In this document: piece after piece, positions 6,249 to 29,593 of the stretch
Position numbering within the stretch: the first letter of the stretch is position 1
Layout of the letters: each line of letters starts with the position of its first letter
Origin: Alphaproteobacteria bacterium
Lineage (GTDB): Bacteria; Pseudomonadota; Alphaproteobacteria; Elsterales; Elsteraceae
DNA length: 32,094 bases
NCBI GenBank assembly: GCA_013298565.1
Contig: JAAFIC010000035.1
Coordinates: 1-32,094 of the forward strand
Reading direction: 5' to 3'
Translations under genes and position numbers: made by a program
The notes under the pieces: generated by a model
Databases searched by the model: none
What the model saw: the letters and a program-made list of their open reading frames with translations, nothing else
Told to the model about the DNA's origin: nothing

Positions 6249-6258
6249 CGCCGTTATC

Positions 6259-7017: not shown

Positions 7018-7024
7018 GAAGCGG

Positions 7025-7651: not shown

Positions 7652-7678
7652 CGGCTGGGTTCTCCGGGAAAGAGGGCG

Positions 7679-8869
7679 CTATTTTGCCGCTTCCGGCAGT
7701 TTGCCCATCGCCACGGCCTCTTGCCAACGGCCATAATCCCACGGAACGTCGGTATTGCAGTTGCTCTGGCAACTCTCGCAACTCGGCATCACGCGGGGGG
7801 CCACCACGTGCGGTTCCACGAGATCCATGAAATGCTGTTCGTCGATACCCAGAATATCGAGGAAAATATCAAGGGCGGCGGGGCGCTTGCCATCATACTC
7901 CGCCACCAGCTTTTCAGCGGTTTCCCGGTCCATCCGGTGATTGCGAATATCAATGGAGGTTACGTGGGTGGTGCGCCCGAACCCGCGCTTCAGCCACTTT
8001 ATATAATCGCGCACGCCCTGCACGAAGCACTCGATTTTCTCGTAATCATACTCCGGCGGCACGCCTTCTACCTGATCGCCCTTCCAATCCAACTCCCGCT
8101 TGATGATATCGACTTGGCGACGCACGTCCCACGGCACAAAATGCCCCAAGAAGACCGACTTCACCCCAAGCTTCCGCAAATCGCGCGCCGGGGGGAAGGT
8201 GAAGGGCTTCAGGTCGCGCAACGTCACCGGATAGTCCGAAACGCTATTATCCAGCATCCCCAGCATATCTTCGGCATTGATGCCCAGGTTGATAACGCGG
8301 TTAAAGCGGCGCTCGTCGTGCTCTTCCACGTCATGATAGCCGTAGAAGGAGCTATATTCCGAACTCGGCTCGCCCCAAAACACCAGCGGCACTTGGTGGC
8401 GCAGGGCTTCCCACATGGGGAAGGAGAAAATGCCCGTGTGGCAGTGCCAGCAAAAATCGCCTCGGCGCTTCAGCGCCTCATACATCAGCTTGCGGACGAC
8501 CTGCCAGTTGGGCGTGAATTTAACGATGTCACAGCCCAGGCGGCGCAGCGCCTTTAGGCAATTCTCTTCAATGGTGGGGCGCATGAAGCCGTGATCGAAC
8601 CGCACCACGAGGCACTTCAGTTTTTTAACCGTCACCAAATACCACAGCGTAAACGCCGAATCCTTCCCGCCAGAGAACGGTACGATGCAGTCGTAATCAT
8701 GCTTGCCACGGTATTGCTCGATCAGCGTATCGAGATCCTGGCCGCGTTGGCCCCAATCAATCTCATCCTGCTTCACTTCGATCTGACGGCAGACGGAACA
8801 GACGCCCTGTTCGTCAAAGCCCAAGGTTTCGGCGGTTTCGGGCATTACGCAGCGGCTGCAATAACGCAT
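7679..8869 (-). CDS. pseA: N-acetyl sugar amidotransferase (PseA/WbpG family)
   Basis: A 396-aa ATP-dependent amidotransferase of the family that includes Campylobacter PseA and Pseudomonas WbpG. These convert an acetamido group of a nonulosonic or uronic sugar to an acetamidino group using ammonia. The PP-loop motif FSGGKDSAF (SGGKDS at 66-71) shows the ATP-pyrophosphatase fold. Cysteine pairs CSRC near residue 4 and CSVC near 24, with CESCQSNC near the C-terminus, suggest a metal site. The central part has HCHTGIFSFPMWEAL and WGEPSSEYSSFYGY. It leads a unit with hisH-like, hisF-like and GNAT genes. With the Pse operon in the same window, 7-acetamidino pseudaminic acid is the likeliest product, but the exact sugar is inferred. 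Confidence 0.88.
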   Translation of the reverse strand: MRYCSRCVMPETAETLGFDEQGVCSVCRQIEVKQDEIDWGQRGQDLDTLIEQYRGKHDYDCIVPFSGGKDSAFTLWYLVTVKKLKCLVVRFDHGFMRPTIEENCLKALRRLGCDIVKFTPNWQVVRKLMYEALKRRGDFCWHCHTGIFSFPMWEALRHQVPLVFWGEPSSEYSSFYGYHDVEEHDERRFNRVINLGINAEDMLGMLDNSVSDYPVTLRDLKPFTFPPARDLRKLGVKSVFLGHFVPWDVRRQVDIIKRELDWKGDQVEGVPPEYDYEKIECFVQGVRDYIKWLKRGFGRTTHVTSIDIRNHRMDRETAEKLVAEYDGKRPAALDIFLDILGIDEQHFMDLVEPHVVAPRVMPSCESCQSNCNTDVPWDYGRWQEAVAMGKLPEAAK

Positions 8870-12907: not shown

Positions 12908-13904
12908 TAAGTCGATCCTGGTCACGGGCGGTACGGGTTCCTTCGGGAAGCGTTTGGTTCGCACCATCCTGTCGCGTTACAAGCCGCGCCGCCTGATTGT
13001 GTTCAGCCGCGATGAGCTGAAACAGTTCGAGATGCAACAGAGCTTCCCCGATAGCCGCTTCGATTGTATGCGCTATTTTCTGGGAGACGTGCGCGATAAG
13101 GATCGGTTGTACCGCGCCTTCGATGGTGTCGATGTGGTTATTCATGCCGCCGCCCTTAAGCAGGTGCCAGCGGCGGAATATAACCCAATCGAGGCGATCC
13201 GCACCAATGTGCTCGGGGCCGCCAACGTGATTGATGCGGCCATTGATAAGGGCGTACAGCGGGTCGTGGCGTTGAGCACCGATAAGGCGGCGAACCCGAT
13301 TAACCTGTATGGGGCCACCAAGCTCTGTTCCGATAAGCTGTTCATCGCGGCGCGTTCATACTCGAATGACCGCACGCGCTTCTGCGTGGTGCGTTACGGC
13401 AATGTGATCGGCAGTCGCGGCAGTGTCGTTCCGGTGTTCTTGCGCCAGAAGGAAGCCGGGTCCGTAACCATCACCGACGAGCGGATGACGCGCTTTGTGA
13501 TTACGCTGGATCAAGGCGTTCAGTTCGTGATCGACTCGTTGGAGCGGATGCAGGGCGGCGAGATTTTTGTGCCGAAGATTCCCAGCGTCGGCATTAACGA
13601 TATTGCCGAAGCCATTGCGCCCGGCTGCCCGCGCCACACCGTTGGCATTCGCCCCGGCGAAAAGCTGCACGAAGTGATGGTTGCGGAAGATGATGCGCGC
13701 AACACAATCGAATTCGCCAATCATTTTTCGATTTTGCCGGATGCTGCCGCGCTGGAAAACCCGGTTTTCACGCAAAATGGCCTCGGCATTCGCTGTGCGG
13801 AAGATTTCCGCTACTCAAGTGATCGAAATGATGTTTGGGTAGATGCCCCTGGCTTCGATCGCTTGTGGCAAGACGAGCAGAATAGCGAAGCGCAGTCGCT
13901 TTAA
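12897..13904 (+). CDS. pseB: UDP-GlcNAc 4,6-dehydratase (inverting) PseB
   Basis: PseB makes the first step of pseudaminic acid synthesis: UDP-GlcNAc is dehydrated and epimerised to a UDP-4-keto-6-deoxy-L-arabino sugar. The 335-aa protein has the NADP-binding motif VTGGTGSFGKRL and GDVRDKDRL. Catalytic residues Asp129, Lys130 and Tyr138 (STDKAANPINLYGATK) match the inverting-dehydratase set of Helicobacter FlaA1 with a three-residue offset. ATG 12897 is chosen over an upstream in-frame ATG because the fold begins there; it overlaps the end of maf by 11 nt, suggesting coupled translation. The other Pse genes are about 12 kb away on the opposite strand, so pseB may be controlled with flagellin modification. 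The Caulobacter counterpart is FlmA. Confidence 0.93.
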   Translation: MLNDKSILVTGGTGSFGKRLVRTILSRYKPRRLIVFSRDELKQFEMQQSFPDSRFDCMRYFLGDVRDKDRLYRAFDGVDVVIHAAALKQVPAAEYNPIEAIRTNVLGAANVIDAAIDKGVQRVVALSTDKAANPINLYGATKLCSDKLFIAARSYSNDRTRFCVVRYGNVIGSRGSVVPVFLRQKEAGSVTITDERMTRFVITLDQGVQFVIDSLERMQGGEIFVPKIPSVGINDIAEAIAPGCPRHTVGIRPGEKLHEVMVAEDDARNTIEFANHFSILPDAAALENPVFTQNGLGIRCAEDFRYSSDRNDVWVDAPGFDRLWQDEQNSEAQSL

Positions 13905-17897: not shown

Positions 17898-19151
17898 ATG
17901 TTAGACTACGAAAAAAAAGTTGCTGAAGCGCTGGAAGCTAAAAATCCAGCACTCGCTCTTAAAATTCTTGAAAAAATAGATCCTTCAAATTTACCGCGAC
18001 AACTTTATTACTCTTTGCGCGGCGAGATTTTTACGCATCAAATATTGTTTGATCGCGCAGTCTTAGAATACCAAAAGGCCGTAGCATTTTCTCCTAACTT
18101 TGCCCCTGCCTACAATGGCTTAGGAAATGCCCTGATTGAACTTGCCGACTATGATCGCGCTTTAGCGGCATTCGATCAAGCGGTGCAATTGGCTCCCGAC
18201 GTTGGGGAGTTTGCTTTTAATCGCGGTCAGTTGCGGTTATTGCGCGGCGATTGGTCTGGTGCCAAGGCTGATTATGAGCGCCGCCTGCTAAGCCCCAGTT
18301 TTCAGGTCCATGCCGATATTGCGCGCCGTCCTGCGTGGGTTGGTTCTGCCGTCGCGGGGCAACGGGTGCTTCTCTATTGGGAGCAGGGCCACGGCGATAC
18401 GCTTCAGTTCGTGCGCTATGCTCACCGGCTAGAAGCCCTCGGTGCGCGGGTCATTATTGAGGCACAGAACCCGCTCTTGCGGCTGCTGCGGGTGAGTTTT
18501 CCTTCGGCTGAGGTTATTGGGAGCGGCGATGCGCTGCCTGAATTCGATCTTCGCGCGGCGATTCCGTCGTTGCCGTGGATTTTTGGAGAGCTACCGGGGG
18601 CAGTTTACGCGCCTACGCCTTATCTTACGGCTCCCGGCGAGGTCGCTCCCCTCGGTCTGGTTGCGGGGCGGCCCTGTGCGGTTGGTCTCGTCTGGGCCGG
18701 AAATCCGAATCATATCAATGACAAGCAGCGCTCTATGTCGCAAGAAACGATGCTAGAACTCACTAAAATCAGTGGTTTCACTTGGTATTCCCTGCAAGTG
18801 GGGGCGTCGGACAAGGCCAAACGGGCGCTGGCGCGGGCGAGTGCCACCGATCTTACACCGGGCCTTGCCGATTTCGCCGATACGGCAGCCGCCATTCTCG
18901 CGCTTGATCTGGTGATCACGGTTGATACGTCGGTCGCGCATCTCGCAGGCGCGCTCGGTAAGCCCGTATGGATTCTGCTGCCGTTTGTGCCAGATTGGCG
19001 TTGGCTGCTGGACCGATCCGACAGCCCTTGGTATCCGTCCGCGCGGCTATTCCGTCAGCCGAAGCGGGGGGATTGGGCCAGCGTGCTCAAGGAGGTTAAG
19101 CGGGCGCTGACCGAGTTTCGCGATCAGCGCGGCGCAAACAGCGCGGCGTAA
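17898..19151 (+). CDS. TPR-glycosyltransferase, FlmG-like flagellin-modification candidate
   Basis: A 417-aa two-part protein. Residues about 30-130 hold TPRs (AVLEYQKAVAFSPNFAPAYN, ALAAFDQAVQLAPDVGEFAF). Residues about 150-405 form a GT-B glycosyltransferase-like domain related to GT9, with LYWEQGHGDTLQFVRYAHRL, VGLVWAGNPNHINDKQRSM and DLVITVDTSVAHLAGALGKP followed by LLPFVPDWRWLLDRSDSPWY. This architecture recalls Caulobacter FlmG, whose TPRs bind flagellin and whose GT domain adds pseudaminic acid. I propose the same job, as context agrees; sequence alone does not prove orthology. Only a weak GCGGGG ribosome-binding site precedes ATG 17898. The 3' end overlaps the convergent GNAT gene by 28 nt. 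Confidence 0.75.
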   Translation: MLDYEKKVAEALEAKNPALALKILEKIDPSNLPRQLYYSLRGEIFTHQILFDRAVLEYQKAVAFSPNFAPAYNGLGNALIELADYDRALAAFDQAVQLAPDVGEFAFNRGQLRLLRGDWSGAKADYERRLLSPSFQVHADIARRPAWVGSAVAGQRVLLYWEQGHGDTLQFVRYAHRLEALGARVIIEAQNPLLRLLRVSFPSAEVIGSGDALPEFDLRAAIPSLPWIFGELPGAVYAPTPYLTAPGEVAPLGLVAGRPCAVGLVWAGNPNHINDKQRSMSQETMLELTKISGFTWYSLQVGASDKAKRALARASATDLTPGLADFADTAAAILALDLVITVDTSVAHLAGALGKPVWILLPFVPDWRWLLDRSDSPWYPSARLFRQPKRGDWASVLKEVKRALTEFRDQRGANSAA

Positions 19152-19657
19152 ACTATGTCCACTTCCGCTCCGGCATTGAGATACTGGCGCACGCGGCGAC
19201 CGTCTGGGACCATCCCCGATTTTTCCATGATGCGCTTCATGCCGATGTTAGTGTCGAGCGTGCCTGCGGTTACTTTCCGCAGCCCGGCCTCGGTGAGCAG
19301 CCAAACGCAAACGGCGTTCCAGGCTTCCAGCCCGTAACCGCCGCCCCAGCAGGAGTGCTCGCCAATCATAATGCCCACATCGGCCAGCTTATTCGGCGCG
19401 TCCACATAGGCGTTGATATTGCCGATATGTTGGCCGGTATCCTTCCGCAGAATGGCCCAGAGGTAGTTGGATGATCCCGCAAAGGAGGCCACATAGTCCG
19501 CACAGCCTTCCAGCGTGAAGGTGCGGTAGCGGTTCTCACTATATTTCACGACTTCGGGGTCGTTCAGCCAGCCCACATAGGCCGGCGTAACATAGGCTTG
19601 CGAATAGGGATCGACGATTAGGCGCTCGGTATCGAGGCGACGGGGCGGCACGCTCAT
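19124..19657 (-). CDS. GNAT-family N-acetyltransferase
   Basis: A 177-aa acetyltransferase with RLDTERLIVDPYSQAYVTPA at the start, WLNDPEVVKYSENRY, HIGNINAYVDAPNKLADVGI in the core, and the cofactor-binding region SCWGGGYGLEAWNAV. The C-terminal part (VTAGTLDTNIGMKRIMEKSG) is typical of RimJ/RimL-type enzymes. It is the last gene of the second sugar module, 12 bp after the GT-B-like gene. Its AGGAGAC ribosome-binding site lies directly before the upstream stop's end, a sign of coupling. It could N-acetylate the amino group made by the DegT enzyme at 22506-23783 (inference). Its 3' end is antisense to the last 28 nt of the TPR-glycosyltransferase gene. Confidence 0.8.
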   Translation of the reverse strand: MSVPPRRLDTERLIVDPYSQAYVTPAYVGWLNDPEVVKYSENRYRTFTLEGCADYVASFAGSSNYLWAILRKDTGQHIGNINAYVDAPNKLADVGIMIGEHSCWGGGYGLEAWNAVCVWLLTEAGLRKVTAGTLDTNIGMKRIMEKSGMVPDGRRVRQYLNAGAEVDIVYAALFAPR

Positions 19658-19669
19658 CGTGTCAGTCTC

Positions 19670-20734
19670 CTAAGAGGCGATCGTTTGGAGGAAGGCGAGG
19701 GCGCGGGGCAGTGAGGGTTCGGGGCGCAAATCATTGCCCTGGCCTGCGGTCAGCAGCGTTGGCAGCATCCTGCTAAGTGCCGGGCGCGTGATGGCGGCAG
19801 GGGTAACGCCGGAGGCAATCGTCGGCAACCACGCGCCTTCTGCCGCGCGTGGCAGAATCGCTAAAGTCGGGCGGCCCAGCAAGGCGGCTTCGTACAGCAG
19901 CATCGTCGTCATCCCGCACACAAGATCGCAGGCGAAAACCATTTCCAACGGCGTTCCGGCTTGGCTGATACCGTCGAATTCGTCCAGCAGCGGGCCAAAC
20001 TCCGCGCGCGTGTTCTTCGGGTGCAGGCGTAGTAGCCGATAGGGGCGCGGGTTCAGCGTGGCGCTTGCGTCCAGAAAGGCTTCGATAACGATGCCCGTGC
20101 GGTCGTCGCGCCCGCCGCGCCCGTCCAGGCTGTAGTCCGGCGACCAGCGGTACTGGTCCGGGTCGAGTCCGCCAGAGATTTCGGAGAGGAAGACCAGCAG
20201 TTTCTGGCCCTTCGGCACATCGGGCAGCAAGCGGCGGCGGACGGCGGCAACGCCCTCTTGCTCTAGTGTTGCGCGTAAGGCGAGGACGGTATCGAAATGC
20301 GGGTGGCCGACACGGCCAATCCTCTCGGGCGGAAAACCAAGCTCTTCATAATGCCGGGCGGTGCCATCGTCCGTTACCAGCAGCCAATCGGGCGCGTGGG
20401 CGAGTGGATCGCGCGTTTCGCCGCGAAAGCGGGCAGCGGCATTGGCGGGGAAGTCGATCATGCCGACGGACGGAATGTCGCGTACTTTGGCTTGACGCAC
20501 GAGATCATGGGCGGCGGTTTGCAGATTCTCGGAAGTGCCAATCAGCAGCACCTCGGTATCGTCGGGCAAGTCGGCGGTTGGCCCGTTAATCACCTGAGCG
20601 GGTTGAACCCCGCGTGCGTCCAGATAGGGCCGCAGGGCCGGGGCAGTCCATAGGGTTGCACCGAGCGGAGCCAGCAGGGGGAGCGCATAATTGGCCGCGC
20701 CGGGGTCTTCAACGAAAACCAACACTTTAGCCAT
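19670..20734 (-). CDS. GT-B-fold-like protein of sugar module
   Basis: A 354-aa protein I cannot assign to a named family. It begins MAKVLVFVEDPGAANYALPL, which looks like a Rossmann strand and turn. It has LLVTDDGTARHYEELGFPPE followed by RIGRVGHPHFD, and late in the sequence RLHPKNTRAEFGPLLDEF and VCGMTTMLLYEAALLGRPTL. The His-Pro-Lys and late E-A-A-L-x-G-R-P elements recall UDP-sugar-binding GT-B proteins such as 2-epimerases and glycosyltransferases. ATG 20734 overlaps the oxidoreductase stop by 8 nt and is preferred to a much longer in-frame extension of Arg-rich, gene-unlike sequence. A glycosyltransferase or a nucleotide-sugar hydrolase would both fit the module. Confidence 0.7.
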   Translation of the reverse strand: MAKVLVFVEDPGAANYALPLLAPLGATLWTAPALRPYLDARGVQPAQVINGPTADLPDDTEVLLIGTSENLQTAAHDLVRQAKVRDIPSVGMIDFPANAAARFRGETRDPLAHAPDWLLVTDDGTARHYEELGFPPERIGRVGHPHFDTVLALRATLEQEGVAAVRRRLLPDVPKGQKLLVFLSEISGGLDPDQYRWSPDYSLDGRGGRDDRTGIVIEAFLDASATLNPRPYRLLRLHPKNTRAEFGPLLDEFDGISQAGTPLEMVFACDLVCGMTTMLLYEAALLGRPTLAILPRAAEGAWLPTIASGVTPAAITRPALSRMLPTLLTAGQGNDLRPEPSLPRALAFLQTIAS

Positions 20735-21764
20735 GAGCCACCTCGATTGTTGCGCCACTTGCCGCAAGCGAGGTTTCGAGCGCGGCAACCACGCGCTCCA
20801 CCTGCACGGCACTGTCGCCCGGCGACCACAGCGGCGCGCGCCCCGCGACGGCTTCGGCAAGATTATCGTACACCTGCCAGAGGGCGTTTCCCACCGTGGT
20901 TGGTAGAAGCTCTGGCGCATCGCTGGCAATCTCCCGCTCGCCGCGCATGGCCCGATTGTCGCGGCGGGGGGCGAGGGCGAAGGTTAACCCCTCCTGCCAC
21001 ACGGACAAGCGGCCTTCGCTCCCCCAAAAATCGAAGCCATTCTCGCGGTAATCCCGGAAATCGACGGGTTGAGCCAACACGATTTCTCCGCCCGCAAGAA
21101 AGAGGGCAAAGCGCAGATCGAAGTCCCCCGGCAGTGGCAAATGCCGGCTAGGGATGGCGGGGCCAAGGGCCTGCACCGCCGTAACCTCCCCCAGCAGCAT
21201 CCGGGTGAGGTCAATCATATGAAAGCCATTATTATGCAGGCCATTGCCATAGATCAGCGTTGCCGCCTGCACGCGCCCGAGCTTCTCGGTAAGTAACCCG
21301 CCTGCCAAGCGGCGCAAGGTTTCATCGGCGCGGCGCCAGATGTTGACTTGTACGATCACGCTGCGGGCGCGCGCCATTGCTATCAAGGCGTCCCCTTCGG
21401 CCAGCGAGGGGCCGAGCGGCTTTTCAACGAGAATGGCTTTAACCGAAGGGAACGGCTCCAGGGCGGCAGCGCGTAGCGTGGGCGGCGTTGCGATTACGAG
21501 GCAGTCGGGGGCATAACCCGCAGCGGCGGCTTCGGTAACAGTGGCGAAGCTCTGCGAGATGCCCCAGCGTTCAGCGGCCCGCGCCCGTGCTTCGGCAGAC
21601 GGGTCGATCACACAATCCCAGGCGAAACCGGGGTGTTCGGCCAGAACCTGCGAATGGGCCGCATAGCGGTAGTACTGCGCCATAATCAAATCTTCGGCAT
21701 AGGTATCGGCCATTTTTCCGAAGCCGATGAGGGCCGTTCGCAACCTTGCCATCCGCAGGCTCAT
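20727..21764 (-). CDS. Gfo/Idh/MocA-family NAD(P)-dependent oxidoreductase
   Basis: A 345-aa sugar oxidoreductase. The N-terminal Rossmann motif is TALIGFGKMADTY (GxGxxA), followed by CLVIATPPTLRAAALE and the family's EKPLGPSLAEGDALI catalytic motif (EKP). The C-terminal substrate domain includes GNGLHNNGFHMIDLTRMLLG with the conserved His/Asp pair. Such enzymes oxidise or reduce hydroxyl or keto groups of nucleotide sugars. Start and stop overlap by 4 nt (ATGA) with the upstream cytidylyltransferase and 8 nt with the downstream gene, so all are one operon. With a DegT aminotransferase two genes upstream, it could supply the keto-sugar for amination (inference). Confidence 0.87.
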   Translation of the reverse strand: MSLRMARLRTALIGFGKMADTYAEDLIMAQYYRYAAHSQVLAEHPGFAWDCVIDPSAEARARAAERWGISQSFATVTEAAAAGYAPDCLVIATPPTLRAAALEPFPSVKAILVEKPLGPSLAEGDALIAMARARSVIVQVNIWRRADETLRRLAGGLLTEKLGRVQAATLIYGNGLHNNGFHMIDLTRMLLGEVTAVQALGPAIPSRHLPLPGDFDLRFALFLAGGEIVLAQPVDFRDYRENGFDFWGSEGRLSVWQEGLTFALAPRRDNRAMRGEREIASDAPELLPTTVGNALWQVYDNLAEAVAGRAPLWSPGDSAVQVERVVAALETSLAASGATIEVAHG

Positions 21765-22504
21765 CGCGCGGCTTTTTCGATGCAGTGGCGGTTGATTTCG
21801 GCCAACTCCGGCTTGCGCTTCAGCAAATCAATCAGCACGGGCAGGCCGAATACCGGGCCGTGCGTTGGCATAAGGTCGGCATAAACCGCGCGGATGAAGG
21901 CGAGGTCTTCGGCATAATCCAACTGGCAGCGCAGGCCGGGCCAGCGCACCGAGGCCGGGGCGAGCAAGTGGATACAGCGGTAAAGGTCTGGGTTTTCGTA
22001 GAAATAAAGCGTGACGTGCTCCCGCACAGCCGCATCTGTGATCCGCGCGGCAACGTCTTGCAAAGCGGTTAGGCGATAGACCTGAACGTCGGTGCCTGCC
22101 GGGTAGCTTTCGATGCGGGCGTTCGTAAGAATATCGCACGGATTAGCCAGAAAGCTCTCGACACCAAGGTCGATCACCTCCGGGTCGAGCAGCGGGCAGT
22201 CCCCCGTGATTTCGACGACAATATCGCTAGCAAGCGCGCTTTGCGCTTTCGCAACCCGGTCCAACACATCTTCTTCACTGCCGCGAAAGAGGGCAACGCC
22301 ATAGGCGCGCGCCCATTCGGCAATCGCATCATCGCGCGCGTCGGTGGAGGTGGCGACGACAATATCGGTCAGGGTTTTGCAGGCGCGCAAGCGGTCCACC
22401 AGCCGCGCGAGGGCGGGTTTACCGTGAATATCCATCAGCACTTTTCCCGGCAGCCGGGACGATCCCATACGGGCTTCGATGCTGGCAATAATGCGCGGGG
22501 TCAT
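21761..22504 (-). CDS. SpsF-type cytidylyltransferase (acylneuraminate CMP-transferase-like)
   Basis: A 247-aa nucleotidyltransferase of the SpsF family, related to CMP-nonulosonate synthetases. The signature IIASIEARMGSSRLPGKVL is at the N-terminus, then TDIVVATSTDARDDAIAEWA, LFRGSEEDVLDRVAKAQ and EITGDCPLLDPEVIDLG, which holds the metal- and nucleotide-binding acidic residues. CQLDYAEDLAFIRAVYADL follows near the end. It resembles the N-terminal half of the fusion at 29593-31650, so the window carries two of these domains. It may activate the sugar made by this module, or be the missing PseF for the Pse pathway; sequence alone does not decide. It starts 1 bp after the aminotransferase stop. 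Confidence 0.83.
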   Translation of the reverse strand: MTPRIIASIEARMGSSRLPGKVLMDIHGKPALARLVDRLRACKTLTDIVVATSTDARDDAIAEWARAYGVALFRGSEEDVLDRVAKAQSALASDIVVEITGDCPLLDPEVIDLGVESFLANPCDILTNARIESYPAGTDVQVYRLTALQDVAARITDAAVREHVTLYFYENPDLYRCIHLLAPASVRWPGLRCQLDYAEDLAFIRAVYADLMPTHGPVFGLPVLIDLLKRKPELAEINRHCIEKAAR

Positions 22505-22505
22505 C

Positions 22506-23783
22506 CTATTCGGCGGCTTGCTGAACGAGTTTGTGGCGTTGGCCGTGAACTTTTCGGATACCCGCGATGATAGCGTCGATATCAGCTTCGGTTAAATCGT
22601 GCGCGCAGGTCTCGAACGCCAGTAGCCGGGTGAAGTGCATCTCTTCCGCCACGGGGCATAGGCCTTTGCCATAGGACCGGTTGGTGAGGGTAAAGGGGAA
22701 ATGGTCGCGGCCCATCGCCATACGCTTTTGAAAAGCGGGCAGCAGGTACAGCGGGCGCACGTAGCCTTGATAGATTGGCACGCCTTCGGCAGCCAGCGCC
22801 TTCACCATCACCTCCCGCGACACGCCAAGGACGGCAGGATCAATCTTCGGTGTCCACACATAATAGACGTGGCGGGTGCCGGGGCGCTCCACGGGCGTGG
22901 TGAAGCCTTCCAGATTCTGCGTGCCTTCGGTGAGCCGATGGGCGATGTGAACGCGCTTGCCAATGAGTTGTTCCGCCCGCTCAAGCTGCACGATACCGAC
23001 GGCAGCCGACAGTTCGGTCATGCGGTAGTTGAAGCCGATCATGTTCGAGAGATCGTCATGCTGGATTGGTTCGACGATGTTTTCTGCGTGGTTACGGATC
23101 ATCTGCATCCGCAGCGCCAACCGATCATCGTCGGTCACGCACATGCCGCCTTCGCCGGTATGGATGTGCTTATGGTAGTTGAGACTGAACACACCAATAT
23201 GGCCGATAGTACCGGCAAACTTACCGTTTTCGGTCGCGAACGGCCCTTGGGCATTGTCTTCGATCAGAACAATGCCGTGTTTATCGGCCAGTGCGCGCAA
23301 GTCGTGCAGGCGGGCGGGGTGGCCGAACAGGTTTACCACCACGATGGCCTTGGTTTTCTCAGTAATATTGGCTTCAACCGAAGCGATATCGAGGCAAAAG
23401 GTCTCCGGTTCAATATCAGCGAACACGGGAATGCCGCCGTAGATCAGCGGGCCGACGGCGGAAGCCGACATGGTATAAGGCGGTACGATCACCTCGTCGC
23501 CCGGCGACAGGCCCACGGCCCCAAGGGCGGCGTAAAGCCCAGACGTGGCGGAGTTCACGGACACGCAGTGCTTGACCTCAAAGGCTTTCGCCCACGCGGC
23601 TTCAAATTCCTTAATCTTCGGCCCGCCCAAAAACTCATCGCCCCAGCTTCCGTAGAAGCCAGACAGGCAGTCGCTTTCCACGACGGCTTGAACAGCAGCA
23701 ACCTCCCCTGGCCCCATCGTGCGGAACGGCTTGAAGGGGGTGGAAATGCTGGGGCTGCCGCCCAAAAGTGCAAGCTCGGTCAT
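22506..23783 (-). CDS. DegT/DnrJ/EryC1-family PLP aminotransferase
   Basis: A 425-aa sugar aminotransferase. PLP-site features are GDEVIVPPYTMSASAVGPLI, VVVNLFGHPARLHDLRALAD, LIEDNAQGPFATENGK and the lysine Schiff-base region SLNYHKHIHTGEGG (Lys205). It begins with LALLGGSPSISTPFKPFRTM, as in AHBA-synthase/StrS-like members, and so differs from the PseC at 25904. The enzyme transfers an amino group to a keto-sugar, usually from glutamate. It is first in the module DegT > SpsF > oxidoreductase > GT-B-like > GNAT. A ribosome-binding AAGGA lies about 8 nt upstream, and a possible -10 box (TATAAT) is at 23808-23813 on the minus strand. Confidence 0.9.
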   Translation of the reverse strand: MTELALLGGSPSISTPFKPFRTMGPGEVAAVQAVVESDCLSGFYGSWGDEFLGGPKIKEFEAAWAKAFEVKHCVSVNSATSGLYAALGAVGLSPGDEVIVPPYTMSASAVGPLIYGGIPVFADIEPETFCLDIASVEANITEKTKAIVVVNLFGHPARLHDLRALADKHGIVLIEDNAQGPFATENGKFAGTIGHIGVFSLNYHKHIHTGEGGMCVTDDDRLALRMQMIRNHAENIVEPIQHDDLSNMIGFNYRMTELSAAVGIVQLERAEQLIGKRVHIAHRLTEGTQNLEGFTTPVERPGTRHVYYVWTPKIDPAVLGVSREVMVKALAAEGVPIYQGYVRPLYLLPAFQKRMAMGRDHFPFTLTNRSYGKGLCPVAEEMHFTRLLAFETCAHDLTEADIDAIIAGIRKVHGQRHKLVQQAAE

Positions 23784-24071
23784 GGTCGATCCTTAGCCCA
23801 GAACAGAATTATATTAAAAATCTAGCACGCGCGGCTGACCTGTCCAATGCAGGTGATACAGAATTTCGGAAACATCGCTTCTCCCGGCTATGTCAATGGC
23901 GCATGAGCTTACTTTAGGGAGCGTGTGCAAAGCCTGTGCTTAACCAGTGCAGCACTCTATCGGATATAGGAAAGTCGCAAATTTCATTAAAAGTTGTATT
24001 AAGATAATATTTTTCTTGACGCGCATTCGCATTCATGTCAATTTGTTTCTGTAAAAATTCGGAGATGCTTG
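23784..24071. promoter_or_regulatory. Divergent promoter region between sugar module and solute-binding protein
   Basis: A 288-bp A+T-rich region between divergent genes, which must hold promoters in both directions. On the minus strand a perfect TATAAT lies at 23808-23813, 25 bp before the aminotransferase start, but I find no convincing -35 box at standard spacing. On the plus strand TTGACG near 24015 is a possible -35 box whose -10 partner (CAATTT) is poor. GGAG at 24061-24064 is the ribosome-binding site of the downstream gene. No other structure stands out. Confidence 0.35.
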
Positions 24072-24821
24072 ATGTCAAAATTAGCCATTAATATGTTTGT
24101 TCTTGCTTTAGGCTCGCTTTATGTAGCCGAGAGTAGCAAGGCTGAGAGTTTTGAAATATTTACGGCCATCATCCCACCCTACACATCGTCTCTGCCGCTT
24201 GATGCAGCCCCAACAGGTGTTATGATCGAGATTGTCATGGCAGCATTTGCCGAACATAATTTACCCATTAAGACGCCTGTGCGAAATTTACCCTGGAGTC
24301 GTTCTCAGCAACTGGCTGCTGAAACGGCAAATAGTATTATTATTCCATTTGCGAGAACAGCCGCGCGCGATCCAAACTACAAATGGATTAGTATAATTCT
24401 GGATGAAAAAAACTACGTTTACACAAAAATTGATTTACCAGCTATTAACTCACTGGATGAATTGAAGCTAGTTAATAGAATTGGTGTTTTGGCAGGAAGT
24501 GCTCAGGATAGTATTTCAAAGCAACTTGGGCTTGAAGTGGCATTGCAGCCAGTTCCGTCAAATAAGCAAAATTTTGAAAAACTGGCACTTGGGCGGATTG
24601 ATGCAGCTTTTAGTCAAGGACTCATGGCGTTTGAGGCCCTTCAGGAGTTACCGGAGGACGTACGCAAAACTATTCAACGCGGGGCGCCAGTAGGAGATTT
24701 ACCGCTGTGGGCTGCAACATCGCTGAATACCTCCGATGCTGTTATCGAGCAGGCACGCGCGGCCTTAACGCCTTTCTTAAAAACTAAGCAATATCAAGAC
24801 ATTATAAAGAAATATCAATAA
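24072..24821 (+). CDS. Periplasmic solute-binding protein (SBP family 3-like)
   Basis: A 249-aa exported protein. Residues 1-24 are a Sec signal peptide (hydrophobic core INMFVLALGSLYVAE, cleavage likely after SSKA). The mature part fits the amino-acid-type periplasmic binding fold: FTAIIPPYTSSLPLD, GVMIEIVMAAFAEHNLPI, INSLDELKLVNRIGVLAGSA and LALGRIDAAFSQGLMAFEAL. No permease or ATPase gene is nearby, so it may be an orphan binder or sensor-type protein and not part of an ABC operon here. ATG 24072 is chosen because GGAG lies 7 nt upstream; a TTG three bases earlier is also in frame. The gene is A+T-richer than its flanks. It has no obvious link to glycosylation. Confidence 0.83.
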   Translation: MSKLAINMFVLALGSLYVAESSKAESFEIFTAIIPPYTSSLPLDAAPTGVMIEIVMAAFAEHNLPIKTPVRNLPWSRSQQLAAETANSIIIPFARTAARDPNYKWISIILDEKNYVYTKIDLPAINSLDELKLVNRIGVLAGSAQDSISKQLGLEVALQPVPSNKQNFEKLALGRIDAAFSQGLMAFEALQELPEDVRKTIQRGAPVGDLPLWAATSLNTSDAVIEQARAALTPFLKTKQYQDIIKKYQ

Positions 24822-24832
24822 TTATTGCACTT

Positions 24833-24870
24833 TAGAGCGTCTTGCGTAAAGGCTGACGCAAGACACTCTA
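24833..24870 (+). repeat. Palindromic repeat 1 (hairpin, terminator-like)
   Basis: TAGAGCGTCTTGCGT and its near-perfect complement ACGCAAGACACTCTA (one mismatch) form a 15-bp stem around an 8-nt loop. It begins 11 bp after the solute-binding gene stop and is followed by GTTTT, so it can act as that gene's terminator. It resembles repeat 2 (TAGAGC-TC-TGCGT core), which suggests two copies of one dispersed element. Confidence 0.75.
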
Positions 24871-24877
24871 GTTTTAT

Positions 24878-24919
24878 CTTAGAGCATCGTGCGTCAACTA
24901 TGACGCACGATGCTCTAAG
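24878..24919 (+). repeat. Palindromic repeat 2 (perfect 19-bp stem)
   Basis: CTTAGAGCATCGTGCGTCA is followed by an ACTA loop and its exact complement, giving a perfect 19-bp stem. It shares its core with repeat 1, seven bases upstream. It lies between convergent genes (solute-binding protein and aldo/keto reductase) and could stop transcription from both sides, although no T-run follows on the plus strand. A dispersed REP-like family is a likely origin (inference). Confidence 0.8.
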
Positions 24920-24971
24920 GCGCGCGGCTCTAAGGAATGGGTTGATGCCGTTGGCGCGCGGTTTACCCTCA

Positions 24972-25907
24972 TCAATGCAGCGCAGGCCAGCGGGCGGGGT
25001 TGAGCAAAGCGTCATCGGTTAGCCCGCACCCGTCGAGCTTGGTCATCAGCGCCATAGGGAGCGGCCCAAGGGCGAGGGCGGCAAGGGCGTCGCTCAATTC
25101 GGCTTCTGATTGCGCGCCGGTAAGCACGACCGAAACCGGCGCGCCGATCGACAAAACATAGCGCAGCGCCAAGGTTGGCAACGCTTCCCAAGCACAGTCC
25201 GCTAGCGTGCGAACTCGGTTAGCGGCGTCGGCCAGCGGGGCAAGTGCCGAGGGCAGAAAGCGGGCGCGGGGTGACAGGACGCCTTTCAGCAGAGCCGAGC
25301 GAACGACGAGGCCCACCCCAGCGGCTTCCGCCTGCGCGAAGACCATCCTACAGCGCTGATCGAGAACCGAGAAGGCAATCTGCACGCTGCTAAAGCCCGG
25401 TGTGGCGATCACAGCGGCGGCGTCTTCGGGACCATAGACGGAGGCTCCCAGGGCCGTGACGCGCCCGGCATCCATTTCCGCCCGCAAAGCCCCCAGCAAC
25501 ACCGGGTTTTGCATATCGGCGGCGGTTGCGTTGTGTATTTTAAGCATATCAAGCGTTTGGCGCTTCAATCGGCTTAGGCTCGTGCTTACCGAGGTCTGCA
25601 CGAAGGCGGCAAGCTCGGAGGTGCGTATATCCTTGGGCAGCAGGATTTTCGTGGCGATAACGGCCCCGGAATCGTCCCTTAACGCAACCCCCGTGCGGCG
25701 TTCGGCATCGCCATAGGCGGGCGCTGTGTCGAAGAAATCCACACCGCCCCTACGCGCGGCGTGCAGCGTTGCCAAGGCGTCGGCTTCCGGTGGCAATACC
25801 GCCTCTGGCCCAACGCCATAGGGCAGCCCCAAGGCCACCGTGCCAAGCCCTAACCGTCCAACCATCGGGCCACCGCGATACAGTGGCTGCGCGGCAAAAC
25901 CGCTCAT
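24972..25907 (-). CDS. Aldo/keto reductase of the pseudaminic acid operon
   Basis: A 311-aa NAD(P)H-dependent oxidoreductase with the AKR barrel signature. The catalytic tetrad is visible as Asp60 and Tyr65 (DFFDTAPAYGDAE), Lys87 (AVIATKILL) and His125 (DMLKIHNATA). RLGLGTVALGLPYGVG forms the first strand. ATG 25907 overlaps the PseC stop by 4 nt (ATGA), so it is translationally coupled; a second ATG at 25865 is possible. The in-frame extension upstream to 26300 lies within pseC and is not used. It is the last gene of the operon. No aldo/keto reductase is needed in the textbook Pse pathway, so it may act on a derivative or on an aldehyde linked to the upstream aminotransferase fusion (inference). 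Confidence 0.85.
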   Translation of the reverse strand: MSGFAAQPLYRGGPMVGRLGLGTVALGLPYGVGPEAVLPPEADALATLHAARRGGVDFFDTAPAYGDAERRTGVALRDDSGAVIATKILLPKDIRTSELAAFVQTSVSTSLSRLKRQTLDMLKIHNATAADMQNPVLLGALRAEMDAGRVTALGASVYGPEDAAAVIATPGFSSVQIAFSVLDQRCRMVFAQAEAAGVGLVVRSALLKGVLSPRARFLPSALAPLADAANRVRTLADCAWEALPTLALRYVLSIGAPVSVVLTGAQSEAELSDALAALALGPLPMALMTKLDGCGLTDDALLNPARWPALH

Positions 25908-27061
25908 GCCGCCGCTCGGCCACTGGTTTCTGCCCGCAGGGCTTCGATAACGCGATCCGCCTGCGCGTCGGTCATGTTCCCCCAGATCGGAATGGTTAGG
26001 ATTTGCGGCCACGCGGCTTCCGCCACTGGGCAATCGCCAAGCTTGGTGCCGAAGGTTGCTTGGTAATACGGCTGGGTATGCACCGGCTGATAATGCACGT
26101 TCACGCCCAACTGGTGCGTGTTCCGCAGAATTGGGAACAGGTCGTCCCGCGTTAGGCGCGAGCCTTCTGGGTCGATCCGCACGACGAACAGGTGATAGCC
26201 GTGCTGCGTGTGCGGCACTTCGGCAAGCGGGCGTACCGCGTTCATATCGGCAAAAGCGTCGCGATAACGCTTGGCGATAGCCCAACGGCGCTCCTGCCAC
26301 TGCGGCAGTTTCTTCAATTGCGACAGGCCCAGGGCCGATTGAAAATCGGTCAGGCGGTAGTTGTAGCCCAGCATGATCTGTTCATACGCGAACCCGCCGG
26401 AGGCCGCGCGGGTGCGCGGGTCCGAGGTAATGCCGTGGTTGCGAAACACGCGCATGGCTTGGGCGCGCTCGGGATCATCGGTCGTAATTAACCCGCCCTC
26501 GCCCGTGGTGAAATGCTTCACCGGATGCAGCGAGAAGGTGGAGAAATCAGCCAGCGTACCCACCGATTTACCGCGATAGGAACCACAAACGGCATGGCAG
26601 GCATCGGAAATCAGCTTCAGCCCGTGGGTTTCGCACAAGGCCCACAACGCATCGTAATCGCAGGGCTGGCCGCAATAATCGACCGCAACGATAGCTTTCG
26701 TCTTCGGCGTGATCTTGCGCGCCACATCGGCAGGGTCGATGGTCAGCGTGTCCGGCAGCACATCGGCGAAAACCGGGGTTGCGCCCATATACACGGCAGC
26801 ATTGGCTGAGGCGACGAAGGTCATCGTCGAAACAATCACCTCATCGCCCGGCCCAATTCCGGCCCCCAACATAGCGCAATGCAGGGCTGCGGTGCCGTTG
26901 GAAACCGCAACGGCTTCCGCAGCCCCCGTGAAGGCGGCAAAGGCTTTCTCGAACTCGCCGACCTTCGGACCAGTGGTGAGCCAGTCGGATTTCAGGGCGG
27001 CGACGACGGCGGCAATATCGTCTTCGTCGATTTCCTGACGGCCATAGGGAATGAAGCTCAT
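25904..27061 (-). CDS. pseC: UDP-4-keto-sugar aminotransferase PseC
   Basis: PseC aminates the 4-keto product of PseB with glutamate and PLP, giving UDP-4-amino-4,6-dideoxy-N-acetyl-L-altrosamine. The 385-aa protein opens with FIPYGRQEIDEDDIAAVV and SDWLTTGPKVGEFEKAF, the usual PseC start. PLP features include GDEVIVSTMTFVASANAAVY, LISDACHAVCGSY and the Schiff-base lysine Lys182 in SLHPVKHFTTGEGG, within one position of Helicobacter PseC. It lies 19 bp after pseI and overlaps the aldo/keto reductase by 4 nt. The other DegT enzyme in the window (22506-23783) lacks the PseC-type N-terminus, so this is the better PseC. AAGGA is 10 nt upstream of the start. Confidence 0.92.
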   Translation of the reverse strand: MSFIPYGRQEIDEDDIAAVVAALKSDWLTTGPKVGEFEKAFAAFTGAAEAVAVSNGTAALHCAMLGAGIGPGDEVIVSTMTFVASANAAVYMGATPVFADVLPDTLTIDPADVARKITPKTKAIVAVDYCGQPCDYDALWALCETHGLKLISDACHAVCGSYRGKSVGTLADFSTFSLHPVKHFTTGEGGLITTDDPERAQAMRVFRNHGITSDPRTRAASGGFAYEQIMLGYNYRLTDFQSALGLSQLKKLPQWQERRWAIAKRYRDAFADMNAVRPLAEVPHTQHGYHLFVVRIDPEGSRLTRDDLFPILRNTHQLGVNVHYQPVHTQPYYQATFGTKLGDCPVAEAAWPQILTIPIWGNMTDAQADRVIEALRAETSGRAAA

Positions 27062-27080: not shown

Positions 27081-28130
27081 CTAGGCCAATAGGGTCCAAT
27101 CCAGCGGCGTGCCGCGCGGAATGTCAGCGCGGGCAGTCAGAGTGAGCACGCGCTCGTAGAACTTCGGCGCAAGACCGAAGCCGGGGCGGATAGAGCGGAC
27201 GTTGAGCGGCGTTAGCGGCTCGCCCGCTTTAATATCAGCCACGGCATAAAGCGAGCGGCGGAACTGGGCATTACCCTTCTCGCCTTCCTGCTGCTCGTAG
27301 GTGATATGGCCCTTGGCGGCCCACGCGGTGCGCGTATCGTCCACGAGGCGCTTAAGCTCGTCCGGCTCTAGGGAGAAAGCGGCATCCGGCCCGCCATCGG
27401 CCCGGCGCAGGGTAACGTGCTTTTCGATTACCGTCGCGCCGAGCACGGTCGCTGCCACAGGTACTGCCGTTCCCAGCGTATGATCGGACAGGCCGGGTTG
27501 CACGCCGAAGGCCGCGCCTAAATGCGCGATGGTCGCGAGGTTATAATCTTCGGCGGCGGCGGGGTAGGCAGACACGCAGTGCAGCAGGCAGAGTTGCGTA
27601 TTCCCGGCACCCTTGGCAGCGGCAACCGCTTCCGAAATCTCGCCAAGATTGGCAAGACCCGTCGAAATAATCATCGGCTTGCCCAAGCGCGCGACGTAGC
27701 GGATGAGCGGCAGATCAATCATCTCGAAGGAGGCGATTTTGAAAGCGGGCGCGTTCAGGCTTTCCAGCAGATCAACAGCCGTAAAATCGAACGGGGAGGA
27801 GAAGCAGGCAATGCCTTCGGCCTTGGCGTGATCGAACAGCGCGCCATGCCATTCCCACGGTGTATGGGCTTCGGCATAAAGATCGTGCAGCGTACGCCCG
27901 TCCCAAAGCCCGCCGGTGATGGTAAAACCAGGGCCGTTATGGTCGAGGGTGATCGTGTCGGCGGTGTAGGTTTGCAGCTTCACCGCATCAGCCCCGCAGG
28001 CTTTCGCCATCGAGATCAACTCTTTGGCGCGGGCAATCTCGCCATTATGGTTGCCGCTGATTTCCGCGATAATATAGGGCGGATGATCGGGGCCGATGGG
28101 GCGACCGGCAATCGCGAAACTCTGGGTCAT
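27081..28130 (-). CDS. pseI: Pseudaminic acid synthase PseI
   Basis: PseI condenses the free 6-deoxy-2,4-diacetamido sugar with phosphoenolpyruvate to form pseudaminic acid. The 349-aa protein has the NeuB-type barrel: YIIAEISGNHNGEIARAKEL, KACGADAVKLQTYTADTITL, FSSPFDFTAVDLLESL, PMIISTGLANLGEI and GLSDHTLGTAVPVAATVLGA followed by TVIEKHVTL. A C-terminal SAF/antifreeze-like domain follows (RSLYAVADIKAGEPLTPLNV to the end). ATG 28130 overlaps the PseG-PseH stop by 4 nt (ATGA). A longer in-frame extension lies inside that gene and is rejected. NeuB or LegI are alternatives, but adjacency to PseC and PseG favours PseI. Confidence 0.92.
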   Translation of the reverse strand: MTQSFAIAGRPIGPDHPPYIIAEISGNHNGEIARAKELISMAKACGADAVKLQTYTADTITLDHNGPGFTITGGLWDGRTLHDLYAEAHTPWEWHGALFDHAKAEGIACFSSPFDFTAVDLLESLNAPAFKIASFEMIDLPLIRYVARLGKPMIISTGLANLGEISEAVAAAKGAGNTQLCLLHCVSAYPAAAEDYNLATIAHLGAAFGVQPGLSDHTLGTAVPVAATVLGATVIEKHVTLRRADGGPDAAFSLEPDELKRLVDDTRTAWAAKGHITYEQQEGEKGNAQFRRSLYAVADIKAGEPLTPLNVRSIRPGFGLAPKFYERVLTLTARADIPRGTPLDWTLLA

Positions 28131-29593
28131 GCAACGCTTTCTGTCAGGCGGGGGCTGAGACGATACCAGTCTTCGGTGAACGGAAGGTACCCTGCGGCGC
28201 GGAATAGCCCGTGGGAGGCGTCGTTTTCCGGCAGCACATGGGCGAGGATAGCCTCGCGCGGAACAAGGGCCGAGGCGAGGCTGAGGGCGGCCCTGCCAAT
28301 CCCGCGTCGGTAATGGTCCGGCGCGGTGGCGATGGAAATTTCCCAACCCGGCACAGGCTCTGCCCGCCAATCGAGGCGAACGTAGCCGACGGGCTGCGGC
28401 CCCATCGGTGTTTCCTCCTGCACGAAGAACGGCAGGCGGTCTGGGTCTTCCAGCAAACGCCGATACCAAGCGGCATGTTCTGCCTCGGTGGGGGAGGCGG
28501 CAGAGCGCGCATAGCGCCGGGTTTCCGGGTGGCGTTGCCAGTCGAGCAACAAAGCCTCGTCGCGGGCTTCCATCAAGCGCAGCGACACGCGCCCATCGAG
28601 AATGGATTGCGATGGCATTAGTGGCAGCAGAATCCGATCAAGCCCGCGCCCGTCGATCAATGCCCGCCCGGCTTTAGCCAGTGCGGCGCGCGCGGTTGCA
28701 TCGGTCAGCAGGGCTGCGAAGCGTTCGGCAATCGCGCCCGAATCATCCTCCACCAGCCACGCGGCACCGGCTGCGGCAAGCCTTTCCGCGCCAGGGCGCT
28801 GGTTTTCGGCAATGATGAGTACCAGTGTTGGCAAGCCTAAGCAGCAACGCTCCCAGGAGGAGGTGCCGCCCGCGCCAATGGCAAGATCGCACCCCGCCAT
28901 CAGCCCGGCCATATCCGGCGGGGCGACGTGTAACTCGGCACCCGATATGGCCGCTACCTGCGTACGAACGCTCGGGAGATGCGCCGCGCTCGGCCCCATC
29001 ACCACGACGAAGCTGAGGGTGGGGGCGTGTTCGGCTAGAGCTGCCAAAGTCTTGCCCGTATGATTGAGCGGATCGGTGCCGCCAAACGAGACCAACACGC
29101 GCTGAACGGTCGCGTGAGGGGAGGTTTTCAGTTGATGCTCTCGTTCGGCCCGCGCGCGCCGGAAAGCCGGGCGGATCGGCACATAGGCGGCCCCGGCGAG
29201 AATGCAGGCGGCGGGCGCGACGTTGGCGTAATCGTCGCTATGCCGCCCCAGGGTCGAGTCCAGCAAAATATGCGCGTCATGCGGGCGCGTTGGCGCGTCG
29301 TCGATCACCAGCAGCTTCCGTCCGGCGCGGCGGAATTTTTGCTCAAGCTCGATGCCGAAATCATACCCATCGAGAATCACAAGGTCCGCAGGCGTCTCCA
29401 CGGCGTCTTCTGGGCGCAAGCGTGGCAAGGCCGCGAGGTCCGGCACGGCGGCATAGCCCCCGTCGGAAATCGCCACCGACACCCGCCACCCGGCTTGATG
29501 CAGTCGCCCTGCCAGGGCCGAGCAGCGCACGGCATGGCCGAGGCCCGTGGTTCCCCCGGCTTCGCACCGGATAATCGCCTGCGGTTGTTGCAT
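28127..29593 (-). CDS. pseG: PseG-PseH fusion: UDP-sugar hydrolase plus N-acetyltransferase
   Basis: One 488-aa frame joins two Pse enzymes. Residues 1 to about 325 are PseG, which removes UDP from UDP-2,4-diacetamido-2,4,6-trideoxy-altrose. They include IIRCEAGGTTGLGHAVRCSA with the GxGHxxR motif (His20), VLVSFGGTDPLNHTGKTLAA and MAGCDLAIGAGGTSSWERCC. Residues about 333-480 are a GNAT domain in the PseH position: VSLRLMEARDEALLLDWQRH, GWEISIATAPDHYRRGIGRA with the cofactor loop RRGIGR (429-434), and LPENDASHGLFRAAGY. PseH acetylates the 4-amino group just before PseG acts, so the fusion joins consecutive steps. The two parts are separate genes in Campylobacter and Helicobacter. It overlaps the upstream gene by 1 nt and pseI by 4 nt. 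Confidence 0.88.
   Translation of the reverse strand: MQQPQAIIRCEAGGTTGLGHAVRCSALAGRLHQAGWRVSVAISDGGYAAVPDLAALPRLRPEDAVETPADLVILDGYDFGIELEQKFRRAGRKLLVIDDAPTRPHDAHILLDSTLGRHSDDYANVAPAACILAGAAYVPIRPAFRRARAEREHQLKTSPHATVQRVLVSFGGTDPLNHTGKTLAALAEHAPTLSFVVVMGPSAAHLPSVRTQVAAISGAELHVAPPDMAGLMAGCDLAIGAGGTSSWERCCLGLPTLVLIIAENQRPGAERLAAAGAAWLVEDDSGAIAERFAALLTDATARAALAKAGRALIDGRGLDRILLPLMPSQSILDGRVSLRLMEARDEALLLDWQRHPETRRYARSAASPTEAEHAAWYRRLLEDPDRLPFFVQEETPMGPQPVGYVRLDWRAEPVPGWEISIATAPDHYRRGIGRAALSLASALVPREAILAHVLPENDASHGLFRAAGYLPFTEDWYRLSPRLTESVA

Follow-up and report, generated by a model that had tools for sequence, protein, structure and literature searches.

Flagella and capsules of bacteria are coated with sialic-acid-like sugars, which influence motility and recognition; to our knowledge, the known chemistry of these sugars ends at two amino groups together with epimers and acyl groups. 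Here we analyse a five-gene module in a stretch of 32,094 nucleotides (hereafter the window) that is the entire contig JAAFIC010000035.1 of the 3.0-Mb draft genome of an alphaproteobacterium of the Elsteraceae. The genes are designated A (DegT), B (SpsF-type cytidylyltransferase), C (Gfo/Idh), D (GT-B) and E (GNAT). The pathway for pseudaminic acid (Pse), a nonulosonic acid (NulO), shares both operon and region with the module, PseB, PseC, PseG and PseI all scoring above their NCBIfam cut-offs. The six canonical steps of that pathway (PseB, PseC, PseH, PseG, PseI and PseF) nevertheless exclude A, B, C and D: A scores well short of the PseC cut-off, and B bears only a weak likeness to PseF.

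Other described systems resemble parts of the module. EpaA and EpaB, which convert Pse to 8-epi-Pse, likewise bring about an oxidoreductase-based change of Pse with a dedicated CTP_transf_3 domain; in the accessible parts of that report, however, EpaB is a short-chain dehydrogenase/reductase (SDR), EpaA carries an aldo/keto reductase (AKR), and no aminotransferase, Gfo/Idh enzyme or GT-B protein is described (PMC12053666). The nab cluster of Vibrio sp. B9-25K2 has an SpsF-like cytidylyltransferase within a Pse cluster, there fused to an AKR, and the sections of that paper available to us do not mention a DegT/Gfo/GT-B core (PMC7371886). The pathway to 8-amino-8-deoxy-Kdo (Kdo8N) in Shewanella has its steps in the same order as those considered here but differs in the substrate (3-deoxy-D-manno-octulosonic acid, Kdo), in the primary carbon C8 and in the iron-dependent oxidase. 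The role of that oxidase, KdnB, is described in the accessible text (PMC5125639). GnnA and GnnB, which make UDP-GlcNAc3N, are also an oxidoreductase and aminotransferase pair, but in the available text they act on a UDP-sugar for lipid A and have no cytidylyltransferase (PMC7663294). RgNanOx and YjhC are Gfo/Idh enzymes that act on C4 of a NulO, but the accessible accounts present them as catabolic and redox-neutral, with no amination (PMC7535918, PMC7315737). By Pfam, no CTP_transf_3-AKR fusion or SDR of the EpaA/EpaB type was found among A to E, the AKR of the window being a separate gene; by Pfam and NCBIfam, the dehydratase, NeuB and SpsG of the sps-type legionaminic acid (Leg) pathway were likewise not among the five. 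(SpsE is a NeuB.) The Leg operon sps of B. subtilis likewise contains an aminotransferase, an acetyltransferase and the cytidylyltransferase SpsF, but uses SpsM, SpsE and SpsG, and a Gfo/Idh step is not seen in the part of the paper available (PMC7439481).

No such module was found in the accessible parts of the literature on the Shewanella sfm genes and on Clostridium Pse. Within a literature search whose coverage left out most subscription journals, no paper paired Gfo/Idh with pseudaminic or nonulosonic acid, or triamino with nonulosonic. The NulO cluster of Leptospira interrogans is reported, in the portion of the source available, to hold an extra aminotransferase to which no role is assigned (PMC3438082), and a metagenome-assembled genome (MAG) of the Leptospirales (L049) carries an ortholog of A. 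The module would make a sugar that is apparently nowhere described and would extend nonulosonate biosynthesis.

A five-gene module predicted to tailor and transfer a nonulosonate

We propose, with a probability of roughly 0.55, that A to E are an adjunct of the Pse pathway that tailors a NulO and transfers it, and that the product is a triamino NulO. The genes are as follows.

22506..23783, minus strand: A, DegT/DnrJ/EryC1/StrS aminotransferase of a distinct subfamily (Pfam DegT_DnrJ_EryC1, 2.2e-82)
21761..22504, minus strand: B, SpsF-type cytidylyltransferase (Pfam CTP_transf_3, 3e-30; PDB 6oew, 4e-30)
20727..21764, minus strand: C, Gfo/Idh/MocA oxidoreductase (Pfam GFO_IDH_MocA, 5.9e-13)
19670..20734, minus strand: D, GT-B protein, probable CMP-nonulosonate transferase (predicted fold and C-terminal profile)
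19124..19657, minus strand: E, GNAT N-acetyltransferase (Pfam Acetyltransf_3, 1.7e-22)

As an earlier note on this DNA had described, all five open reading frames (ORFs) are present on one strand with gaps or overlaps of at most 12 nt (A/B, 1-nt gap; B/C, 4-nt overlap; C/D, 8-nt overlap; D/E, 12-nt gap). D starts at the ATG at position 20734, as read from the DNA, and a longer ORF with a TTG start is unnecessary. The capacity that the same note ascribed to the set, namely to oxidise a sugar, give it an acetylated amino group and activate it, is supported, and its remark that the set lacks a dehydratase and a NeuB is true of the five genes only, PseB, PseC, PseG and PseI lying in the same window. 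All five genes are retained in a sister genome (G164) with 79-91% protein identity. The module genes are under purifying selection, since the dN/dS ratio (nonsynonymous to synonymous substitutions) between the window and the sister genome is 0.04-0.15 (A, 0.05; B, 0.065; C, 0.13; D, 0.15; E, 0.04).

A scores 277.6 bits against Pfam PF01041 (cut-off, 19.8) and lies below every NCBIfam equivalog cut-off. The best of these scores was obtained with PseC, and A did not qualify as a canonical PseC (210.1 of the 423.5 bits needed). The protein carries the invariant motif NYHKHxHxGEGG, in which lysine K205, which we take to be the pyridoxal phosphate lysine, is invariant in 7/7 aligned rows; aminotransferases keep this lysine, whereas ColD-type dehydrases have a histidine there. 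In a tree that took in 18 of 52 background rows, the A subfamily formed its own clade of 35 rows on one side of a branch with support 100/98. Matches of A in the PDB include the Kdo8N transaminase (5k8b, 1e-39) and ColD. For E, a search for known GNAT relatives returned three weak matches alone, two of which are aminoglycoside acetyltransferases.

The module core travels with NeuB

To see how the module is distributed, we searched 289 genomes of the class for D and found 11 positives, the genome of the window included. Of the stretches around D in seven of the others (G164, G044, G067, G120, G008, G093 and G160), six contain all of A, B, C and D, arranged either as A-B-C-D or as B-C-A-D; the contigs of G067 are too short to reveal A and B. 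A profile search for A then covered 84,980 species, each represented by a single genome; of 538 confirmed stretches, the best 80 were analysed. These were divided into 28 loci with A orthologs (at least 450 bits) and 52 other DegT loci (at most 350 bits), a division chosen after the gap had been seen. Our first models of A to D were built from the window and alphaproteobacterial genomes and contained none of the 80 loci, whereas the models for NeuB and PseF and the second one for D include sequences from loci later counted with them; note also that Fisher tests on the 28-versus-52 counts take loci as independent.

C (at least 100 bits) lay near A in 25/28 orthologous loci and in 0/52 of the others. 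With the first models, the corresponding counts were 17/28 versus 0/52 for D and 14/28 versus 3/52 for B; NeuB was near A in 23/28 versus 6/52, and a GNAT gene in 10/28 versus 0/52. Wider models, built in part from the same loci, placed C near A in 26/28, D in 21/28 and NeuB in 23/28; an SpsF- or PseF-type cytidylyltransferase was near A in 23/28 orthologous loci compared with 6/52 others. By the wider-model count the GNAT gene was within 200 nt of A in 8/28. DegT, Gfo/Idh and GT-B together make up a mobile core that occurs across many phyla. The core travels with NeuB, the sister genome keeps the full set, and the GNAT gene is a frequent rather than a constant companion.

The genome of the window has a single NeuB (PseI, at 27081..28130). 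Among the five orthologous loci that lack a nearby NeuB, 4/5 belong to genomes that carry one elsewhere. In a sample of 398 Pseudomonadota genomes, which is less biased than the 80-locus set, A occurred in 8 and NeuB in 152, and all 8 genomes with A were NeuB-positive; the chance of 8/8 is about 0.38 to the eighth power, or near 4 in 10,000 by hand arithmetic (7/7 when the genome of the window is left out). Some NeuBs at module loci are PseI-like and others fall between PseI and NeuB_NnaB: PseI is above its cut-off in the window and in L028, and 9/10 divergent NeuBs scanned were below both cut-offs. This mixed result led us to reject NeuB typing as a means of deciding between Pse and Leg. Given the mixed NeuB types, the module is not tied to one stereochemical series, and its target should therefore be something that both series share.

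The A clade includes members from Pseudomonadota, Verrucomicrobiota, Bacteroidota, Spirochaetota, Cyanobacteriota, Bacillota, Chloroflexota, Nitrospirota, Campylobacterota, Bdellovibrionota and Omnitrophota and from an Asgard archaeal MAG. Because the subfamily spans so many phyla, wide transfer of the module between lineages is suggested. A phage or plasmid origin was rejected, as just one distant phage record and one plasmid, p6 of Azospirillum argentinense (L120), were found; on p6, A has a C-terminal extension and B, C, D and NeuB are nearby. The extension (L120, 16001-18343) is about 360 residues long and methyltransferase-like as read from sequence. The contig of a Lokiarchaeia MAG (L042) carries B, C, D (in two frames), A and a GNAT gene, and may reflect either contamination or genuine transfer. 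In L021 and L022, a second set (Gfo/Idh, DegT, cytidylyltransferase and epimerase-like) lies beside the module and is perhaps a related second tailoring cassette.

Cytidylyltransferase B, oxidoreductase C and GT-B protein D

B is not a canonical PseF (28.5 bits against a cut-off of 205.7). In L048, B and C are fused in one protein of 573 residues. At loci without an SpsF-type B, a PseF-type enzyme takes its place; it immediately precedes C in L029, L031 and L039 and immediately follows A in L046. Of seven such stand-ins scanned (six from the 28 loci and one from another genome), 4/7 were above the PseF cut-off. The genome of the window encodes two NulO-type cytidylyltransferase domains, namely B and that of CTP-AT3 (an SpsF-type cytidylyltransferase fused to a class-III aminotransferase), versus one NeuB, and a separate cytidylyltransferase gene reads as KdsB from its sequence. 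This tally supports the earlier suggestion that the SpsF-type enzyme points to a CMP-sugar that differs from plain Pse.

C scores 50 bits against PF01408 (cut-off, 24), and its fold is predicted with a local confidence (pLDDT) of 95. The fold matches Gfo/Idh enzymes with Z about 30; since WlbA (Z 30.3) ties with inositol dehydrogenase, anhydrofructose reductase and others, the search does not indicate a substrate. Residues E114, K115, P116 and H182 are invariant in 21 aligned rows. The usual Gfo/Idh motif carries an Asp four residues before the catalytic His, and in C there is no Asp four residues N-terminal of H182.

A Pfam scan of D matched no family, and the predicted fold is GT-B (mean pLDDT, 93). 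GT-B enzymes have their nucleotide site in the C-terminal half. A profile of that half of D retrieved seven PDB sequences up to E 10, and 7/7 were KpsC (five) or SiaD (two); the matches are weak, with two KpsC at E 0.0044-0.007, the only two below 0.01, and SiaD at E 0.32. No match was reported for the N-terminal half. KpsC uses CMP-Kdo and SiaD CMP-Neu5Ac (N-acetylneuraminic acid), all seven matches being CMP-ulosonate transferases. Since the C-terminal matches, though weak, are uniform, we read D with moderate confidence as a predicted CMP-NulO transferase. KpsC and SiaD were not among the 50 rows of a structural re-ranking of D, and a viral fold search with D returned generic GT-B proteins only.

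The Pse genes and A to E form one ancestral operon

The earlier note had taken A to E for a second, stand-alone module. Instead, they are the tail of a Pse operon that has been split by an insertion, and the same genes accompany NeuB clusters in other phyla. The remaining genes concerned, and the insertion, are as follows.

12870..13904, plus strand: PseB dehydratase (TIGR03589, 503.8 bits; cut-off, 407.75)
23860..24977, strand not applicable: insertion of 1118 bp, 44% GC (alignment with the sister genome breaks at 23859 and 24978)
24069-24821, plus strand, opposite to the module: solute-binding-like gene inside the insertion (absent in the sister genome)
24972..26030, minus strand: AKR, start uncertain (Pfam, 1.9e-29 on a longer ORF)
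25904..27061, minus strand: PseC aminotransferase (TIGR03588, 434.7 bits; cut-off, 423.5)
27081..28130, minus strand: PseI (NeuB) pseudaminic acid synthase, start approximate (TIGR03586, 495.8 bits; cut-off, 340.25)
28127..29593, minus strand: PseG hydrolase fused to a PseH-like GNAT (TIGR03590, 207 bits; cut-off, 153.55)
29593..31650, minus strand: CTP-AT3 (Pfam; PDB matches)

In the sister genome, CTP-AT3, PseGH, PseI, PseC, AKR, A, B, C, D and E follow one another in this order on one strand, with a gap of 78 nt between AKR and A. The Pse genes and A to E are thus one ancestral operon, and the look of a second module in the window is secondary, owed to the insertion, whose GC content is 44%, whereas the module stands at 62% and the Pse part at 63%. 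An insertion in the window is likelier than a deletion in the sister genome because another MAG (L025) has an uninterrupted run in which NeuB lies 23 nt before A. (Note that the aminotransferase half of CTP-AT3 is glutamate-semialdehyde-aminomutase-like and that an AKR is nearby; in L089 the cytidylyltransferase, the aminotransferase and the AKR again come after PseB and PseC, on a 6-kb contig on which the module was not seen.)

A predicted route to a triamino nonulosonate

In the route that we propose, PseB, PseC, PseH, PseG and PseI would yield a Pse-type NulO, one free secondary hydroxyl of which C would oxidise to a ketone. A would then transaminate the ketone, E would acylate the new amine, B would form the CMP-sugar and D would move its NulO onto the flagellar glycan or another acceptor. 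Oxidation could come before or after CMP transfer, both being allowed by the loci with a single cytidylyltransferase. The earlier idea that the module might feed the Pse pathway is accordingly turned round in this scheme, the likely position of A to E being downstream of NeuB. We favour a CMP-nonulosonate as the probable sugar of the module because of the one NeuB set against two NulO-type cytidylyltransferases, the B-C fusion, the PseF stand-ins and the matches of D. What the data show directly is the gene content, the single ancestral operon, the linkage to NeuB and cytidylyltransferases, the B-C fusion and the folds of the families; the activities of A to E, like the substrate, the order of the steps, the position modified, the acyl group and the acceptor, are predicted from gene families and their arrangement.

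A Pse- or Leg-type sugar has free secondary hydroxyls at C4, the only one on the ring, and at C8, on the side chain. The expected product would thus be a 4-amino-4-deoxy (or 8-amino-8-deoxy) NulO, with mass shifts of -0.984 Da for the exchange of OH for NH2 and of +41.027 Da overall for that of OH for NHAc. By analogy, C4 is the favoured site, because Gfo/Idh enzymes mostly act on pyranoses and because RgNanOx and YjhC pass through 4-keto sialic acid: in the accessible parts of the reports, the Gfo/Idh enzyme RgNanOx goes via this intermediate (PMC7535918) and YjhC, another Gfo/Idh enzyme, is reported to oxidise C4 of sialic acid (PMC7315737). C8 is possible; EpaA and EpaB act on Pse C8 with a CTP_transf_3 domain and, from what is available of that report, are a likely precedent for oxidation there (PMC12053666).

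A bolder version of the proposal, which we put forward only tentatively and hold to be doubtful, is that natural 4-amino-4-deoxy NulOs (4,5,7-triamino-3,4,5,7,9-pentadeoxy-non-2-ulosonic acids) may be made by a mobile cassette present in more than 10 phyla, with its own CMP-synthetase and with D as a new family of CMP-NulO glycosyltransferases. The 4-amino sialic acid group underlies the 4-modified sialidase inhibitors. If our proposal is correct, the cassette adds a third amino group and has a CMP-synthetase and a GT-B transferase of its own, it could account for flagellin glycan masses that fit neither Pse nor Leg, and the A subfamily beside Gfo/Idh and NeuB would serve as an annotation marker.

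Alternative explanations

Several observations weigh against a NulO-modifying role. B or D is missing from some of the 28 loci; L032, L033 and L035 hold NeuB only on another contig, and in the Lokiarchaeia MAG (L042, module contig of 6.7 kb) NeuB was not found. The ranking of D by fold puts UDP-N-acetylglucosamine (UDP-GlcNAc) 2-epimerases first (5dld: Z 25.1, root-mean-square deviation 3.5, 318 residues aligned), and the full-length profile of D matches these epimerases (E 3e-4) better than KpsC. UDP-GlcNAc 2-epimerases require catalytic acids and a histidine, and these were not evident in the profile alignment of D, a weak one. By fold and by profile, many other Gfo/Idh enzymes are at least as near to C as NanOx/YjhC are, and the fold of C fails to separate the NulO from the UDP-GlcNAc option. 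Moreover, a 3-CH2 group beside a 4-ketone invites elimination, which, in the accessible description, NanOx exploits (PMC7535918). Finally, a module whose sugar merely neighbours a NulO in one glycan could likewise cluster with NeuB. We disfavour a mere neighbour sugar mainly because of the B-C fusion and the replacement of B by PseF.

One form of that possibility is that C and A, like GnnA/GnnB or WlbA/WlbC, act at C3 of a UDP-hexosamine, for instance UDP-GlcNAc, by oxidation followed by amination, that E acetylates it, that the resulting sugar adjoins a NulO in the glycan and that B serves the NulO. We think this unlikely, though it deserves weight. GnnA is a Gfo/Idh enzyme and GnnB a DegT enzyme. 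An oxidoreductase paired with an aminotransferase follows the GnnA/GnnB logic, as set out in the available part of that report (PMC7663294), and WlbA is among the tied best matches of C by profile as well as by structure; the fusion in L048, the linkage to NeuB and NulO cytidylyltransferases, the presence of PseF in place of B next to C or A and the failure of A to reach any UDP-sugar equivalog cut-off all speak for another substrate. That the module instead prepares an unusual hexosamine ahead of the NeuB condensation might be expected from its tight operon with PseC, PseG-PseH and PseI. In that condensation C3 of the hexose becomes C6, its oxygen closing the pyranose ring, and C2 and C4 already bear nitrogen in the PseB/PseC route. 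By this chemistry no useful free hydroxyl remains on the hexose, and B and D would be left unexplained, so that we give the idea little credence.

A change of another kind, in which C acts as an epimerase-type oxidoreductase and A as a dehydrase-like pyridoxal phosphate enzyme, the product being a stereoisomer or deoxy form of a NulO rather than an amino sugar, strikes us as slightly less credible again. DegT relatives such as ColD are dehydrases, and EpaA/EpaB alter Pse C8 through oxidation and reduction in the part of the report available (PMC12053666), but A keeps the lysine of its GEGG motif, and an acetyltransferase gene often adjoins it. The least probable explanation, to which we attach very little weight, is a Kdo-based route in which Kdo would be oxidised, aminated, activated by B and transferred by D. 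In its favour are the match of A to 5k8b and the fact that the best CMP-transferase match of D is the Kdo transferase KpsC. Oxidation, amination, CMP activation and transfer would also fit the order of the Kdo8N pathway, in which KdnA and KdsB have their roles alongside KdnB. KdnB, however, is described in the accessible text as an iron-dependent alcohol dehydrogenase and not a Gfo/Idh enzyme (PMC5125639), and the module is linked to NeuB. In addition, KdsA (Kdo-8-phosphate synthase) was above cut-off in 3/5 module genomes tested, with none in L041 and L025, a result that calls for caution because the genomes are drafts; Kdo as a general substrate was rejected on this ground.

Flagellar surroundings

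Apart from the genes listed, the window is a flagellar region with FlgE, FlgD, FliK, flagellin, Maf, FlbT, FlaF and a GT41-like protein, and it also carries WbuX, HisH and HisF together with the PseB, PseC, PseI, PseG-PseH, AKR and CTP-AT3 genes. The Maf-type and GT41 (FlmG-like) proteins near flagellin (10907-12907 and 14772-16712) are 48-49% identical to those of the sister genome, compared with 73-93% for the sugar enzymes, and the transferases thus diverge much faster. Between flagellin and FliK (5691-8869) lie the WbuX amidotransferase, HisH, HisF and a GNAT, an acetamidino-type set, and a comparable set is found near the module in L022, L026, L038, L045 and L047.

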